A stretch of 64,000 nt of DNA from Sphingobacterium oryzagri. GTDB lineage: Bacteria; Bacteroidota; Bacteroidia; Sphingobacteriales; Sphingobacteriaceae. Position 1 is the stretch's first letter, and each line of letters starts with the position of its first letter. Shown piece by piece: positions 4,298 to 42,171 of this stretch. The stretch spans positions 4,526,001 through 4,590,000 of the forward strand of contig NZ_CP117880.1 in assembly GCF_028736175.1 (NCBI RefSeq). Direction: 5' to 3'. The translations under genes and the position numbers were made by a program. A model generated the notes under the pieces. The model searched no databases. It worked only from the letters and a program-made list of their open reading frames with translations, and was not told the DNA's origin.

Positions 4298-7200
4298 TTA
4301 AAAAGTAAGGTTTAAACCAACAACATAGGTGCGCACCATCGGGTAATTTAAGGCGTCGCCAACACCATCTACGCTGTTTCCGCGCGGCACATCGCGCGCT
4401 TCCGGATCCCAGCCCAACCAATTGGTCCAGGTGTATAAGTTACGACCGCTCACGTAAGCAGTAACTCCGCCGATGCCGATCTTACTAGCCGCTGCCACGG
4501 GCAAATTGTAACTAAATGTCACATCTTTCAACCGTGTGAAACTCGCATTGGACGGAAAGCCATAACCGTAGATATTTGACCGATTGCTCAACGAGCGCCA
4601 CTCATTACTTTGGTTTTCTGGTGTCCAATAACCCAGTTCGGCTGGTGTGCTACGTCTACCCATTTCATCAGAAGCACCACCGATCTGTGGATTATTGCGA
4701 AGCGTACCTTGCACCGTGCTGATAAAAATATTCAGACTAAAATCTTTGTAGGTAAAGGTATTGGTTAAACCACCCGTCCATTTTGGCGCCCGTTGGCCCA
4801 ATATTGAGCGATCATCGTTATTAATGATACCGTCTCCATTTAAATCGGCCAATTTAACGGCTCCAGCCTCAGCTTGCTCATCCCAACCTTTATTCGCACC
4901 AGCAGCGATCTCTGCCTCTTGCCAAATGCCGACTTTCGTGTAATCGTAAATTACGCCAACGGGATGCCCAATAAACCAGCGGTTACCCAAATCATCTTTA
5001 CCATCGCCGTAGATATCCACAATTTTATTTTTATTGTGCGCAAAAACGAGCGTTGTAGACCAGGTGAAGTTTTCTTTAACGACGTTTTTAGAGGTTAAGG
5101 TTACATCGATACCGGTATTTTCTAATTTTCCTAGATTGCTCCATACTTGTGAGAAACCGGTTAGCCTTGGCAAACTTTGTTGCAGAAGCATATCCTGCGT
5201 ATGCGTTTTATAGAACTCTACCGTACCGCTTAAGCGGTTATTCCAAAGTCCAAAATCAACACCGGTATTGAAACCTGCTGTCTTTTCCCATCGCAAATCG
5301 CCATTCCCCATTTGTGTCCGAAGTCGTATAGCCGCATTTGACAAACCGCCCATGGCTAATGGGTTGGAATCCATTAACGAAAGTGTTTGGTAGATGCCAA
5401 TCGCTTCATTACCCGAAACGCCGTAAGATATACGCCATTTTAAGTTGTTAATTACATCTTTGGTATTGGCCATAAACGATTCGTTGTGGATATTCCAAGC
5501 AAAGGCCGCCGAAGGAAACGTCCCAAATTTGTTGTTGCTACCGAAAACGGAGGCTCCGTCGCGGCGAACCGTTAACGTAGCCATATAGCGACTATCGTAT
5601 CCATAGTTCAAGCGCGCCATCTGCGAGAGCGACCGGTAAAGGTCGGCTACGGATGAAACTTTCTGCGTAGATGCACTACCCAAATTTCCCCAACCTAACG
5701 CATCATTCGGAAAAACTTCGCCTATAGCAATAGCTTGCTGATAATATTTGCTTTTTGATGCATACAATCCTGTAAAGTCCAGATGGTGCACACCGAAATC
5801 TTTGGTATAGGTCAAGATGTTTTCGATGGTGTAGGTTTGTGACTCCTGATTGGTAATGCGCCCCATTCCGGCAAAGTTATATACCGACTCACCTTCGTAT
5901 TCGTTAGTACGTTTGGGCACAAATGTATAACCGCCATTGAACTTGTATTTCAAACCAGCCAGTGGCGACCAAATTTGTCCAAAGTTCATTTCCGCGTAAC
6001 CATTCAATGTGACGTTAAATTCTCTTCTTTCCGGATTTAACGTGGTTGGCAATAATGGGTTTGTCCACAATTGCTCCGAATACATTGGAAATTGTGTCAG
6101 TGTACCATCCTCGTTGTACATGCGTGCGTAAGGACTCATAGCCGCCGCTTGCATTAAGTTGGCACGTCCACCGTCTCTATCGTGAGAAGCAATAAAAGTA
6201 GATGTTCCGACCGCTAAATATTTGGTGGCCGTAAAATCGGTATTTGCGCGAAACGAGTAGCGTTTGTAATTATAGCCTTTCAAGATACCTTTTTGGTTTA
6301 GGTAATCTGTTGATATAAAATAACGCGCATTCTCACTTCCGCCCGATATCCCAACATTGTGGTTTTGGATAACACCGGTTTGCATCACCGCGTCCAACCA
6401 GTCTGTGGTCGTTCCATTGATATAATTATCGTATTCAAATTGATTACGAACCGGACCACCATTATACAATGCCGAATTGTTTATACGTGCATATTCCTGG
6501 TAGCGGTTTAGCAATTCCTCTCCGGAAACAGGCGTTAATATGTGCGCAGCTTCTTCCACCCCGCCATATCCGCTGTAGCGAATGGTCGGCGTACCTGTCG
6601 TTCCGCGTTTTGTCGTAATCAAAATAACACCGTTGGAGCCGTTTACCCCGTAAATAGCTACGGCTGATGGATCTTTCAAGATTTCCACCGATTCAATATC
6701 ATTCGGGTTAATATCGTTTAGCGACCCGTCTGTCCTGGTCAGTGGAATTCCATCGACCACGATATACGGCCCTGTCGATCCACTCATCGAGTTTTGGCCT
6801 CTCACCAGCGTACTGGGCGCGTCTCCCGGAACCGAAGATGCTTGGGAAATATTAACATTGGATACCGCTCCTTGAATGGCCTGCAGCACATTGGTTACGG
6901 GCAGTTTTGATAAGCGCTCTTTGGGCACCGAAGCAACAGAACCGGTGATATCAGAACGCTTTTGAGAGCCGTAGCCCACCACAACAAGCTCTTCCAGCAT
7001 ATTGTCTGACGGACTTAACTGGACATCAAGCGTGTTGCCGCTGCCTACAGTTACTTCTTTTTCAACATAACCTACATAAGTAAAAAGTAGGATAGCGCCA
7101 CGCGTCGCATCGATCGTAAAGTTACCATCTGTGCCGGATTGTGCACGCGCCGCTCCACCTTTAACGGCAACGGTAACGCCGCCGAGCCCTTCGCCGGTTG

Positions 7201-7843: not shown

Positions 7844-9925
7844 TTAATAGCCTGGATTTTGAAGAGCCTGCTTTTCTGCCGGTGTTAACGATGCGCCACC
7901 TTGATTGGTAATGGCATCTAAGAAAGATTGCGGAATTGGCCGGTAATAGTGCGTATTTGCATTAAACACGGTATTTCCCCGTACGTATCCATCGTTAAAC
8001 GCTTTCCAGCGTGCTTCCAGCGTTTTTGTACGGGCCAGATCTTCCCAACGATACAGCTCACCACACAATTCGCGGGTACGCTCATTTAACAAAAAGCAGA
8101 GCATCTTTTGTGCATTAGCGCTGGCGCCTAGCTTTGCATATATAGGCCCATCGATCGCCGAGTTGTATACATCATCTACAGAATTGATCAGTATAGACGT
8201 TGCTGCAGTCGTTTGTGCCATGTCACCATTGGATTCGTAATAGGAATTTCCTTCCCAATAAATTGCGCCATTGGCTGAAAAACCACCGCCTTTGCCTAAA
8301 GCATAGCTGTTATTTTTATAGGCTTGCCCACCATCCACATTTTTTGCACGGTTTTCGCCTTCTTTGTAGGCTGCGCGCGCGCGCAATCTATTTATCCAGG
8401 CGATGGCGTTTGCATATTCGCCCTCGCCTTTTCGGATGTAGGCTTCGGCGATCATCAACACGTCTTCGGCAGAGCGCGCCATGATGACGTCGCGCGTTCC
8501 GAACTGCGAAGCGATACTTACCCGATAACCATCTCTAAACTTCGACAAGGCAACTGAGCGTGATTGGACGCCGAAATAACCATTGTTGCCATGTTGCCCA
8601 ACCCAAGCTTGCGGCTCGCCCTCAAAATAACGTACAAACGTATGTGTGTTTTGCATCACGCCATTTTTCAATACGCCGGTGTTATCGCCAGCAACCCGCC
8701 GGTAACGGCTGTCGCCCGCATTGTTTACCACATATTTAATCGCTAATTGTCCGCCGGTAAATCGCTTTGTTCCGGCCACAGTGCCTGCCGGGCCTAAAGC
8801 CGCATTTGTTGCATTCCATGTGGGCGCTGTTGCGGTATTGTTACTACCATACATCGTGATAAACGACTTCCAAAAGCGCGAATCGTTTCTTCGGTCAAAC
8901 ACGTCCATCGTATAGTTCGTTGCACGAGCGTACGAAAACTCTCTGCCGCCCGAGATGTCCCGGCTTGTTCCGGCAAGATCTTGGTAAACCGATGGATAAT
9001 ACAAATGAATCTGATTGCCATAGCGACCCCAAGTGGCCTGATCATCAGAAAACTGTGCAGCCAACACCACTTCGGATACTTTCTCATTTGCTCCGTTTGC
9101 GCGCTGGTAATCCCAGAGTTGCGTATAATCGCTCACTAGCGGATGCGCATTAACGACCTCTGTTCCGTATTTGATGACCGCATCAAGATCGGCATTGATA
9201 TAATTTGCATTCCAGGAAGCATACAGCTCGCTTGCTCTGGTTAACTGTGCTTTGGCCAAATAGTGTGCAGCAGCCCATTTGGTAACTCGTCCAAATTCTG
9301 ACACCGTAGCAGGCAAGAGATCATAAGCCTGTTTCAGATCTGTCACTACTTGCGCGAAGATTTCTTCTTCCGAAGCCCGTGTGAAATATGTTTCTACACC
9401 GTTTGATGGTGTCAATTTTAGCGGAACGCCGCCAAATTGCACCAGCAATTGCAAGTAAAAATAGCCGCGCATAAAATGTCCTTCGCCTAACCGCGTGTTG
9501 TAACTGCTGCTCGCTTTATCGTAATACAACGGTACATACTGTATCAAGCTATTGGCCGATTCGATACCGCTGTACATGTTGTCAAATAGCGGCGCAAGGT
9601 TACTCCCTCCGTAAGTCGATTCTGACGCATTCAAATCGGTGCTATAGCTATTGAAACTCGGTGACGGATTATTGGCGTCGGTAAACTCGTCGACACCTAA
9701 GTTAAAGAGTGCCATTCCCCAGGTGTAGTTATATTTGAATTTCAATTTGGAATATACGCCTGTTGCTAAATCGTCCAGACCGGCTTGTGTTTTAAGATAT
9801 TCGGTATCTGGGATGGTAATCTGCTCTTCTTTCAAAAAATCTTTGCTACAGGCGTTCATACTCAACAAACCTATGGTCCCTAAAACAGAGAACATTAACC
9901 TGCAATTTCTTTTGTTCATCTTCAT
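7844..9925 (-). CDS. SusD/RagB-family glycan-binding lipoprotein
   Basis: This 693-residue SusD homologue is long for the family (usually 500-650). The signal peptide ends in a lipobox (LLSMNACSK, Cys near 26). SusD features are the N-terminal YLKTQAGLDDLATGVYSKL, the TPR region with GHFMRGYFYLQLLVQFGGVPL, the ERTRELCGELYRWEDLART segment near the C-terminus and the final LTPAEKQALQNPGY. It follows its SusC partner by 21 bp and is closed by the terminator at 7771-7804. It would present RG-I oligosaccharide to the SusC pore on the cell surface. An ATG two codons in (MNKRNC) could also be the start. Confidence 0.93.
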   Translation of the reverse strand: MKMNKRNCRLMFSVLGTIGLLSMNACSKDFLKEEQITIPDTEYLKTQAGLDDLATGVYSKLKFKYNYTWGMALFNLGVDEFTDANNPSPSFNSYSTDLNASESTYGGSNLAPLFDNMYSGIESANSLIQYVPLYYDKASSSYNTRLGEGHFMRGYFYLQLLVQFGGVPLKLTPSNGVETYFTRASEEEIFAQVVTDLKQAYDLLPATVSEFGRVTKWAAAHYLAKAQLTRASELYASWNANYINADLDAVIKYGTEVVNAHPLVSDYTQLWDYQRANGANEKVSEVVLAAQFSDDQATWGRYGNQIHLYYPSVYQDLAGTSRDISGGREFSYARATNYTMDVFDRRNDSRFWKSFITMYGSNNTATAPTWNATNAALGPAGTVAGTKRFTGGQLAIKYVVNNAGDSRYRRVAGDNTGVLKNGVMQNTHTFVRYFEGEPQAWVGQHGNNGYFGVQSRSVALSKFRDGYRVSIASQFGTRDVIMARSAEDVLMIAEAYIRKGEGEYANAIAWINRLRARAAYKEGENRAKNVDGGQAYKNNSYALGKGGGFSANGAIYWEGNSYYESNGDMAQTTAATSILINSVDDVYNSAIDGPIYAKLGASANAQKMLCFLLNERTRELCGELYRWEDLARTKTLEARWKAFNDGYVRGNTVFNANTHYYRPIPQSFLDAITNQGGASLTPAEKQALQNPGY

Positions 9926-38915: not shown

Positions 38916-39326
38916 TTAATGCCTGGAATCCATATAAGTTTGTAAAATAATCGTGGCCGATACGGTATCTATCAGTCCTTTATCCTGACGCTTGCTTTTA
39001 TTTTTGCCACTTTGTGCAATTACTGCAGACGCCATTTTAGAAGTAAAGCGTTCGTCAATCTCTGCAACAGCAATTGACGGATAGGTTTTTTTTAGCTTTC
39101 TGACGAAGCCAACAACATACTGTGCCGACGCCGACGCTGTACCATCCAGTTGCATGGGTTTGCCGACCACGAAGGTGGCGACTTGCTCTTCCGATAAATA
39201 TTTCGCTAGAAAGCTCCAGATATCTTCAGGATGCACGGTCGTTAACGACGTTGCGATAATTTGCATCGGATCTGTAACCGCAATACCGATGCGTTTCGTC
39301 CCGTAATCAAATGCCATAATACGCAT
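38916..39326 (-). CDS. ruvX: Holliday junction resolvase-like RuvX (YqgF)
   Basis: This 136-residue cytoplasmic RNase H-fold nuclease belongs to the YqgF/RuvX family, linked to pre-16S rRNA 5' processing and recombination. The N-terminal FDYGTKRIGIAVTDP holds the first catalytic Asp (Asp6). ATFVVGKPMQLDGTASASAQ, AEIDERFTSKMAS and the closing DTVSATIILQTYMDS carry the remaining conserved acidic residues. It heads the ruvX-ybeY-DUF2490 unit. Confidence 0.96.
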   Translation of the reverse strand: MRIMAFDYGTKRIGIAVTDPMQIIATSLTTVHPEDIWSFLAKYLSEEQVATFVVGKPMQLDGTASASAQYVVGFVRKLKKTYPSIAVAEIDERFTSKMASAVIAQSGKNKSKRQDKGLIDTVSATIILQTYMDSRH

Positions 39327-39519: not shown

Positions 39520-40746
39520 ATGAAACAGTTCTTTATAATCTTCTTTGTCATCATCGGCTTACAAACCGGCTTTGCACAAAACTATAACCAGGAAATCGAA
39601 AACTTTAGGCAGCAGCAGTTTCAATCTTTAAGTCAAGAAGCAAATGGGCCTATTGCTAAGCAAAACCTGGCTTTTTTACAATATTTCGAAGCGGATGAAA
39701 CATTCAAGGTGATGGCCGATGTGGAGTACCTGCTCAACGAGCCTACTTTTCGCATGCCGACGTCGGATGGTACCAGCAAAGAATTTAAACGATATGGATT
39801 ACTTACCTTTACGCTAAAAGGACAGAAATTTACGCTTCCATTATATGAGAATGTAAGTCGCTTTCAAAGCAGCGTGCAATCGTCCTACCTTTTTTTGCCT
39901 ATATTAGATCGCACAACGGGAGAATCTACGTATGAAAGCGGCCGATATATCGATGTCAAAAAGCAAGATATAAAGGATGGAAAATTAATTGTCGATTTTA
40001 ACAAAGCTTATAATCCTTATTGTGCATACAGCTCGGGCTACAGATGCCCGCAGCCGCCAAAAGCAAATTATTTGGATATCGACATAGCGGCTGGCGAAAA
40101 AAAGTATACAGGACCAAAAAATCAACGAGAACAAGATAGCAATATGGCTAAAAATTTCACAGAAAAGGAAAAGAAACTCATCACAGCAGGCAGCCCAACA
40201 GAAAAAATGTATGTATTGCAGACGCCTATTGAAAAAGATTCCCTGATTTTGCGAACACAATCTGACGACATAAAGTATGATGATGCCTTGCTAACTGCCC
40301 TTTCGACCAGAATGTTGGCAACGGTGCAAGATCCCGCGCATCCTGGTGTAGGTATTGCAGCGCCGCAGGTAGGTATCAACAAAAATTTGATCTGGGTGCA
40401 GCGCTTCGATAAGCCCAACCAGCCTTTTGAGTTTTATGTAAACCCTAAAATTATTTGGCGCTCACAACTATTACGCCAGGGAGCGGAAGGCTGCTTGTCT
40501 ATTCCCGACAGAAAAGAGGATGTAATCCGAAATTACAGCATTAAGCTACAGTACATCGACAGAAAAACGGGCAAGCATACCGAAGAACTGATAGAAGGCT
40601 TTACCGCCGTTATATTCCAGCATGAAGTAGATCATCTTTACGGTATTCTATATCCTGACCGTTTGGAAGAGCAGGCTGCAAAAGAGATGGTTCCGCTCCA
40701 TGAAAACATGCAATTCTTCATTGGCAAAGGAACCATCGTACCTTAA
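39520..40746 (+). CDS. Exported DUF1684-peptide deformylase fusion
   Basis: This 408-residue protein joins two families. Residues 1-20 form a Sec signal peptide (FIIFFVIIGLQTGFAQ). Residues about 22-200 are DUF1684, shown by the signature FNKAYNPYCAYSSGYRCPQP and IDIAAGEKKY. Residues about 230-405 are a peptide deformylase with all three metal-site motifs: GVGIAAPQ (276-283), EGCLS (323-327, Cys325 ligand) and QHEVDH (367-372, His368, Glu369, His372). Deformylases normally act on nascent chains in the cytoplasm, so an exported copy with an intact active site is odd. Substrate and role are unknown. It has its own promoter and stands alone between the ruvX unit and a convergent glutaminyl cyclase. 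Confidence 0.9.
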   Translation: MKQFFIIFFVIIGLQTGFAQNYNQEIENFRQQQFQSLSQEANGPIAKQNLAFLQYFEADETFKVMADVEYLLNEPTFRMPTSDGTSKEFKRYGLLTFTLKGQKFTLPLYENVSRFQSSVQSSYLFLPILDRTTGESTYESGRYIDVKKQDIKDGKLIVDFNKAYNPYCAYSSGYRCPQPPKANYLDIDIAAGEKKYTGPKNQREQDSNMAKNFTEKEKKLITAGSPTEKMYVLQTPIEKDSLILRTQSDDIKYDDALLTALSTRMLATVQDPAHPGVGIAAPQVGINKNLIWVQRFDKPNQPFEFYVNPKIIWRSQLLRQGAEGCLSIPDRKEDVIRNYSIKLQYIDRKTGKHTEELIEGFTAVIFQHEVDHLYGILYPDRLEEQAAKEMVPLHENMQFFIGKGTIVP

Positions 40747-40748
40747 AA

Positions 40749-41807
40749 TTATCGCGGCAGAACCTTTATTTCATAGAGTTTGTCCCATTGTTTTCCAGTG
40801 ACAAAAAGATGTTTGGTTGCTTTGTTGTAAGCAATTCCGTTAAGCTCTTTATCGGTCTGTGAAGCATGGGTATGCAGCCCCATTAGATTAATTTGTCCTT
40901 CAATAGCGCCTGTATTCGGGTCGATAATCACGATAATATCTTTGCCATACACATTAGCATAGACTTTCCCGTCGACATACTCTAGCTCGTTAAGCGCATC
41001 TTGTGGTCCTTCACTACCATATACTGCCAGCATGCCGGTTTCCTGATAAGTGTTTGGGTCTATAAAATATAGTTTATTGGATCCGTCAGATTTTATCAAA
41101 CGCGTGCCGTCATAGCAAAGTCCCCAGCCTTCTTTGCTATTTTGATAACTGAAAGACGACACTTGCTCAAAAGTCTTCTTATCAAGTACGAAACCTTCAT
41201 TATTTAACCAAGTAAGCATAATGATATGGTTGCCGATGAGTGTCATTCCTTCGCCAAAATAATCTTGCCCATTGGCGCTCTTGCCTGTAAACTCTTTCTT
41301 TTGCAGTACTTTTCCTGTCGCGAGTTCTACGCGTCTTATCGAAGAAATCAGTTGGTTACCAGCACCCGTAGATTCATACAACACGCCGTTATCAAATTCT
41401 AGTCCCTGCGTAAACGCCTGTGTATCGTGTGGATATTCGTTAACCTTTTCAAAAGTTAATTGTGCTGCCGATTCCGGCACTATCGTGACGTTACTGTAAG
41501 CAACGTCTTCCTTTCCGGCTTTATACACCTTGGCAATCAGGTTTCGCGCACCCAAGCCAATTTCTTTGGTATCTAGTGTAACAGCGGAGGTATCCTGCTT
41601 TCTGTCCAAAATCTCGCCGTCAACGGTGTAAACGACCGAGTCGATGGTCGTATCCGGAAATTGCATCCGGATACTCACTTTTTGTCCCAATACAATGGTT
41701 TCGCCCGATTTAGGCGACAAAAATTCAAACTTACCTTGTTGCGACTTACACCCTGCGATAAACAAGGTTCCTAAAAACAATATCCCTACAATGTGATTTA
41801 TCTTCAT
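40749..41807 (-). CDS. Glutaminyl-peptide cyclotransferase, lipoprotein
   Basis: This 352-residue protein would cyclise N-terminal glutamine to pyroglutamate on exported proteins. The signal peptide has a lipobox (GTLFIAGCKSQ, Cys at about 20). Residues about 27-110 look like an immunoglobulin-like domain; residues about 115-350 form the five-bladed propeller of the plant/bacterial-type cyclase, with HDTQAFTQGLEFDNGVLYES, FGEGMTLIGNHIIMLTWLN, GWGLCYDGTRLIKSDGSNKL and ELNGIAYNKATKHLFVTGKQW. I start at the ATG at 41807 because the lipobox then falls where expected; a longer frame overlaps yraN. It is the last gene of the dnaG-yraN unit. Confidence 0.88.
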   Translation of the reverse strand: MKINHIVGILFLGTLFIAGCKSQQGKFEFLSPKSGETIVLGQKVSIRMQFPDTTIDSVVYTVDGEILDRKQDTSAVTLDTKEIGLGARNLIAKVYKAGKEDVAYSNVTIVPESAAQLTFEKVNEYPHDTQAFTQGLEFDNGVLYESTGAGNQLISSIRRVELATGKVLQKKEFTGKSANGQDYFGEGMTLIGNHIIMLTWLNNEGFVLDKKTFEQVSSFSYQNSKEGWGLCYDGTRLIKSDGSNKLYFIDPNTYQETGMLAVYGSEGPQDALNELEYVDGKVYANVYGKDIIVIIDPNTGAIEGQINLMGLHTHASQTDKELNGIAYNKATKHLFVTGKQWDKLYEIKVLPR

Positions 41808-41814
41808 TTTTAAT

Positions 41815-42171
41815 TTAATTACTCCAAAAAGCATCTTTAATTAGTTCAATATGATCATTTTTATGCAAATAAACAGCAACTATATCAAATCTTATTTCGC
41901 CCTCATAACCTGATATGTCCAGATATGCATCGGCTGCGCGTATCAACAGCGCTTGCTTACGGCTGTCTACGAAAGAATCAGGCTCACCAAAACTGGAAGA
42001 CGAACGTGCCTTGACCTCGATAAAGACAAGAGTATCTTTATCTCGTGCAATGATATCAATCTCACCATATTTATGGCGCCAGTTTAACGTAATGATATCG
42101 TAACCCCGCTGTGCTAAAAACTTGACAGCTAGCTGTTCGCCGCGTTTGCCGCTATCTAGGTGCTTTGCCAT
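41815..42171 (-). CDS. yraN: YraN family endonuclease-fold protein (UPF0102)
   Basis: This 118-residue cytoplasmic protein has the restriction-endonuclease-like core GEIDIIARDKDTLVFIEVKAR, with the acidic and Glu-x-Lys residues of that fold, and the N-terminal GKRGEQLAVKFLAQRGYDII signature of the UPF0102 family. The role is poorly defined; nuclease activity is suspected. It lies 11 bp after dnaG and 7 bp before the cyclase gene. Confidence 0.93.
   Translation of the reverse strand: MAKHLDSGKRGEQLAVKFLAQRGYDIITLNWRHKYGEIDIIARDKDTLVFIEVKARSSSSFGEPDSFVDSRKQALLIRAADAYLDISGYEGEIRFDIVAVYLHKNDHIELIKDAFWSN

Follow-up and report, generated by a model that had tools for sequence, protein, structure and literature searches.

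The peptide deformylase of bacteria is regarded as a cytoplasmic enzyme associated with the ribosome, and as an antibiotic target. The gene studied here, in a window of 64,000 nucleotides (the whole stretch of DNA that was analysed), places a DUF1684 domain and a deformylase behind a predicted signal peptide, and it raises the question of what a deformylase could do outside the cytoplasm. On the whole we consider it probable, from the sequence comparisons described below, that the gene encodes an extracytoplasmic deformylase for formyl-Met N-termini and peptides missed by the cytoplasmic enzyme. The original prediction had highlighted the pairing with DUF1684. This fusion is real, but it is not the key feature, as export belongs to the deformylase clade.

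The fusion gene in its genome

The N-terminus of the fusion reads MKQFFIIFFVIIGLQTGFA followed by QNYN, in agreement with the clear Sec signal peptide that had been claimed: it is a standard Sec leader, whose hydrophobic stretch ends in GFA directly before a glutamine. In Bacteroidetes, signal peptidase I is described by a Q-rule, in which cleavage exposes a Gln (PMC5837995), and the putative cleavage site between Ala19 and Gln20 fits this rule. Both predicted domains were recovered as well. The DUF1684 signature NPYCAYSSGYRCPQPP is present and the domain scores 138.5 bits against a gathering score of 25, while the deformylase part has all of GVGIAAPQ, EGCLS and QHEVDH, with the metal ligands and the catalytic Glu intact. 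A frame error or a chance fusion was excluded because full-length orthologues are intact in many genomes and both domains are under strong purifying selection (median dN/dS in close pairs 0.056 for DUF1684 vs 0.024 for the deformylase).

Table 1. Features of the fusion gene and of its two neighbours in the window.
Feature	Position	Strand	Details and basis
DUF1684-peptide deformylase fusion, exported (predicted)	39520..40746	+	408 aa, ATG start, single intact ORF
Predicted Sec signal peptide	39520..39576	+	sequence, heuristic leader classifier, Q-rule (PMC5837995); mature protein from Gln20
DUF1684 domain (PF07920), residues 52-194	39673..40101	+	Pfam E 2.4e-40
CX7C motif of DUF1684, Cys168 and Cys176	40021..40047	+	sequence
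Peptide deformylase domain (PF01327), residues 243-385	40246..40674	+	Pfam E 1.4e-35, model, fold matches
Motif I GVGIAAPQ	40345..40368	+	alignment to E. coli Def
V-Q-R-F-D signature of exported clade, residues 293-297	40396..40410	+	alignment
Motif II EGCLS, metal ligand Cys325	40486..40500	+	alignment to E. coli Def
Motif III QHEVDH, metal ligands His368 and His372, catalytic Glu369	40618..40635	+	alignment
Glutamine cyclotransferase (PF05096), Q-rule enzyme class, lipoprotein-like N-terminus	40749..41834	-	convergent with fusion, 2 bp gap
ruvX/yqgF-like gene	38916..39326	-	divergent from fusion

The fusion, with its export signal, is neither the only nor the main def of its genome (5.17 Mb, single contig), which holds two deformylase genes. 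The canonical one, at C1:91365-91853 in a 207-aa open frame, has no leader and scores 174 bits, compared to 125 bits for the fusion deformylase in the same search. An fmt gene is also found, and formyl-Met is therefore made in the host. The suggested check on coexistence with a cytoplasmic def gave the same picture beyond this genome: a deformylase search detected a canonical-type def in each of the 53 genomes tested, among them the genomes that also carry an exported form.

Both neighbours of the fusion, the ruvX-like gene and the cyclotransferase, recur beside it across Sphingobacterium. The exported glutaminyl cyclase of Bacteroidetes (PMC5837995, PMC10653852), whose gene adjoins the fusion in this genus, is likewise an enzyme that modifies N-termini outside the cytoplasm, although it differs from the exported deformylase in fold and reaction. 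In the neighbourhoods compared, no cyclotransferase was found near clade genes outside Sphingobacterium; a functional link is therefore only suggested.

Deformylases with export signals across Bacteroidota

In a tree built from 114 deformylases, a single branch (SH-aLRT 99, 0.69 changes per column along the stem) sets the exported enzymes apart from canonical Bacteroidota def. Leaders were assigned with a simple classifier (ATG, GTG or TTG start, uncharged hydrophobic core, lipobox search), which detected an export signal in 28/28 fusions, 37/40 stand-alone members and 0/78 canonical deformylases. The DUF1684-deformylase fusions thus all carry a signal peptide, which had been posed as a question. 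With the leader of L096 added by eye (MIKFITYGLLICSSTLFAQ), 38/40 stand-alone members have a signal peptide or lipobox, and L044 and L045 have no leader. This count is not circular because the rows were sorted by sequence motif and not by leader. The fusion belongs to this clade by its separation from canonical def, its export signal and its VQRxD signature. Compared to canonical Def (PF01327, TIGR00079; E. coli Def), it shares the fold, motifs I-III, the metal ligands, the catalytic Glu and the hydrophobic S1' residues. Unlike canonical Def, the exported type has a signal peptide or lipobox, an N-terminal extension, VQRxD and a clade of its own, and it coexists with a canonical def.

It could be argued that the leader is uncleaved or unused in vivo and that the protein is a second cytoplasmic deformylase, the more so as some clade members (L216, L217, L213) are leaderless. 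However, leaders or lipoboxes are kept over several families despite sequence divergence, canonical enzymes lack them throughout, and the DUF1684 relatives are predicted to be exported too in most Bacteroidia. We regard this possibility as highly improbable, and continue with an exported enzyme.

When named genomes were scanned with the deformylase domain, stand-alone relatives turned up in at least Algoriella, Chryseobacterium, Epilithonimonas, Tamlana and Paucihalobacter, and also in at least one Saprospiraceae MAG, Tidjanibacter, Dysgonomonas and many gut Bacteroidales MAGs. The clade ranges over Sphingobacterium, Parapedobacter, Chryseobacterium, Epilithonimonas, Flavobacteriaceae and gut Bacteroidales. 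Most of its lineages are without the DUF1684 fusion, and predicted export is a property of the whole clade. A clade profile separated exported rows outside its training (204 bits or more) from canonical ones (140 bits at most). With this profile, 8 of the 295 sampled Bacteroidia genomes were found to carry the clade (at least 224 bits; next score 142), and the task is therefore not a general one; a narrower profile gave 10/395 genomes at phylum level. In one Bacteroidales MAG (L111, 5820-7149), the exported deformylase reads in frame into a flavin-reductase-like domain, which may be a real fusion or a sequence error.

Exported Bacteroidota deformylases form a separate branch that is apparently undescribed. 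In the open-access literature searched, no exported, secreted or periplasmic peptide deformylase was described. No exported deformylase appears in the passages found in a 2025 survey of accessory deformylases (PMC12690207), and its text does not mention Bacteroidota, Flavobacteria, Sphingobacterium or Chryseobacterium. The accessory enzymes surveyed there, e.g. V. cholerae Def2 and the def-fmt fusion of Exiguobacterium, are also extra to a housekeeping enzyme, and by the same account a fused deformylase can be functional.

Gene neighbourhoods of the clade vary by family and indicate no pathway. A functional operon was rejected, as contexts differ among families and the glutaminyl cyclase adjacency is restricted to Sphingobacterium. 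Several local arrangements could be seen. In three Flavobacteriaceae loci (L099, L104, L105), mreB-mreC-mreD-pbp2-rodA lies directly upstream of the lipoprotein deformylase gene on the same strand. In gut Bacteroidales MAGs L106, L113 and L117, an ispF-like gene precedes the exported deformylase on the same strand, with mutL farther upstream. In the case of the Dysgonomonas MAG L122, the exported deformylase and canonical def (5844-6528 and 8840-9446) are about 2.3 kb apart. The canonical def there follows ruvX, and the fusion in the window also adjoins a ruvX-like gene; together this is possibly the trace of an old tandem duplication.

These contexts, together with the distribution, bear on the idea of nutrient scavenging, in which the enzyme would unblock formyl peptides of lysed environmental bacteria for digestion and the cell's own proteins would not be its target. 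The distribution is patchy over soil, marine and gut Bacteroidota, unlike that of a core function, and both types of leader, signal peptide and lipobox, are predicted to serve export. On the other hand, no recurring peptidase or transporter genes were seen in the neighbourhoods compared, and the three Flavobacteriaceae loci follow the mreBCD-pbp2-rodA genes and not a nutrient locus. We treat scavenging as a serious rival, but an unlikely one, to an enzyme for formyl-Met ends that escape the cytoplasmic deformylase.

The DUF1684 domain and its losses

The exported-type deformylase occurs in 69 of the 301 family genomes compared (60 Sphingobacterium, 8 Parapedobacter and 1 of a third genus). In Sphingobacterium, the deformylase domain is found in 60/68 sampled genomes and the full-length fusion, as an open frame, in 49/68. 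The other 8/68 genomes, without the exported deformylase, are also without DUF1684; here the gene was therefore lost whole. Among the matches listed, the nearest full-length fusion from a named species is that of S. faecium (L094), with 64% across the deformylase domain. Partial losses were also observed. Leader and deformylase are kept and DUF1684 is gone in L204-L210, and in L209 the leader runs almost directly into the linker. P. composti (L095/L214) retains only a remnant of DUF1684 (SSGYRCPVLP...GEKP). In L216/L217 and L213 the leader is lost in addition to DUF1684, and these proteins, predicted to be cytoplasmic again, offer a natural counterpart to the exported forms in localisation. 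Parsimony on the tree gave 7 changes of the DUF1684 label, at least 3 of them forced by well-supported branches (L211 and L212, with interrupted or incomplete frames, were left out of the counts). Altogether, DUF1684 was added later and has been lost repeatedly in Sphingobacterium and Parapedobacter, and signal peptide and deformylase stayed.

The fusion shares its sequence and CX7C motif with the DUF1684 family (PF07920), of which the solved structures 2lnu, 2lok, 4dlh and 4fj4 are stand-alone archaeal proteins of no assigned function; here, by contrast, the domain is joined to an exported deformylase. For the Haloferax homologue HVO_1043, a CX7C thiol relay was proposed (PMC9426492). One paper that mentions DUF1684 was found in the literature searched. 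The host genome has one DUF1684 gene, the fusion itself, and a search of viral contigs gave no DUF1684. A DUF1684 model based on two sequences had low confidence (pLDDT 55), with structural matches within its own family only. The full-fusion model is likewise poor over DUF1684, and therefore gives no information on the relative placement of the domains.

The mature fusion contains the cysteines Cys168, Cys176 and the metal ligand Cys325 and none other, and just three cysteines are found in 26/29 mature fusions. A role of the CX7C motif in keeping the metal-ligand Cys of the deformylase reduced in the periplasm was considered. The pattern of losses does not support such a redox partnership, because Cys-type exported deformylases persist where no DUF1684 remains in the genome (e.g. 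L204-L210) and genomes with an Asp in place of this Cys keep DUF1684: of seven genomes tested from the Weeksellaceae family group, in which the rows read have the Asp form, six carry a separate DUF1684 gene. Given the three-cysteine pattern, a weaker link between the DUF1684 cysteines and the deformylase Cys may exist.

Active site and candidate substrates

The deformylase domain carries the motifs GxGxAAxQ, EGCLS and QHExDH, scores above the curated cut-off of the PF01327 superfamily, and reaches 113.1 in the equivalog model TIGR00079 (cut-off 103.95). Its structural model is confident (pLDDT block means mostly 87-98), and the best fold matches are solved deformylases, one with bound Met-Ala-Ser (TM-score on target up to 0.92). 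Alignment to the E. coli enzyme shows intact catalytic residues (G278, Q283, E323, C325, L326, R337, H368, E369, H372), and the S1' positions compared are all hydrophobic (V277, F361, V364, I365). Across the clade, in E. coli numbering, Gly45, Gln50, Leu91, Arg102, His132, Glu133 and His136 are kept in nearly all members, and so is Glu88, with Asp in three.

Most deformylases depend on an Fe(II) site that oxidises readily, and such a site is a difficulty for an enzyme outside the cytoplasm. The metal ligand Cys90 (E. coli numbering) is Cys in 59 exported rows and Asp in 9; the latter come from Chryseobacterium, Epilithonimonas and others, all in the Weeksellaceae family group. In L016 (1440-2079) and in L100, L102, L109, L110, L115, L179, L180 and L182, EGDLS replaces EGCLS and the other site residues are kept. 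As judged from these alignments, the Cys-to-Asp form is a natural ligand swap at the metal site, and chemistry or metal may therefore differ in the nine rows. The clade also has specific residues where canonical enzymes vary, i.e. Gln294 in 63/68, Arg295 in 67/68 and Asp297 in 68/68 exported rows, frequencies that are partly by construction as part of the signature (VQR.D) was used for sorting the rows. At E. coli position 128, Val is found in the exported clade and Arg in most canonical enzymes.

These features could be read as a fold recruited to another amidase or hydrolase reaction, e.g. with an envelope component or a formamide other than a peptide as substrate, and with VQRxD as an altered substrate site. 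The clade-invariant Arg and Asp, the Val that replaces the usual Arg, the ligand swap in Chryseobacterium and Epilithonimonas and the long stem branch all fit such a change. Against it, every residue for deformylation is retained, as are the hydrophobic S1' positions compared. A changed reaction is a further serious rival that we nevertheless rate as rather improbable. Less likely still is a decoy, in which the exported deformylase would bind actinonin-like inhibitors ahead of the essential enzyme: accessory deformylases are tied to adaptation and resistance in the survey (PMC12690207), and the fold search also matched actinonin complexes of related deformylases, but a stoichiometric sink is a weak defence, and the old vertical conservation with low dN/dS, in the absence of any visible mobile context, makes it very unlikely.

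An extracytoplasmic deformylase for formyl-Met ends is thus the reading that we prefer. The sequences show the export signals, the separate clade, the intact active site, the separate cytoplasmic def, fmt and the purifying selection; its activity, compartment and substrate, as well as the role of DUF1684, are inferred. Being exported, as predicted, and not the housekeeping enzyme, it would need another pool of substrates, as the original prediction had also reasoned. Such a pool can be proposed. SRP-bound nascent chains with signal sequences are not deformylated, and it was proposed that membrane proteins of N-out topology retain their formyl group (PMC5454389); according to the survey, too, deformylation generally misses exported and membrane proteins (PMC12690207). 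Because of this shielding, formyl-Met ends are to be expected in the periplasm, as substrate for an exported deformylase.

In the proposed mechanism, the fusion would be exported by Sec, cleaved between Ala19 and Gln20 and act in the periplasm, and its lipoprotein relatives would be anchored to a membrane facing this compartment. The C-terminal domain would strip the formyl group from N-formyl-methionyl N-termini and peptides left by the cytoplasmic deformylase. Candidate substrates are inner-membrane proteins with their N-terminus out and signal peptides after cleavage, both SRP-shielded during synthesis, and possibly also formyl peptides of lysed neighbours. Deformylation would open these substrates to aminopeptidases or finish N-terminal maturation. 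DUF1684 would be an accessory, dispensable beta-rich domain, joined in the Sphingobacterium/Parapedobacter line.

Overall, the comparisons suggest that proteins or peptides may lose their formyl groups outside the cytoplasm too. More tentatively, and with some doubt, Bacteroidota might possess a second, extracytoplasmic step of N-terminal maturation, in which a dedicated clade deformylates translocated N-termini and signal peptides beside the Q-rule glutaminyl cyclase. The clade also bears on automatic annotation, which labels its proteins plain peptide deformylase. If the proposed function is true, a conserved exported clade would bear on what becomes of membrane proteins and signal peptides with formylated N-termini, and on the amount of formyl peptide that gut and opportunistic Bacteroidota present to host receptors.
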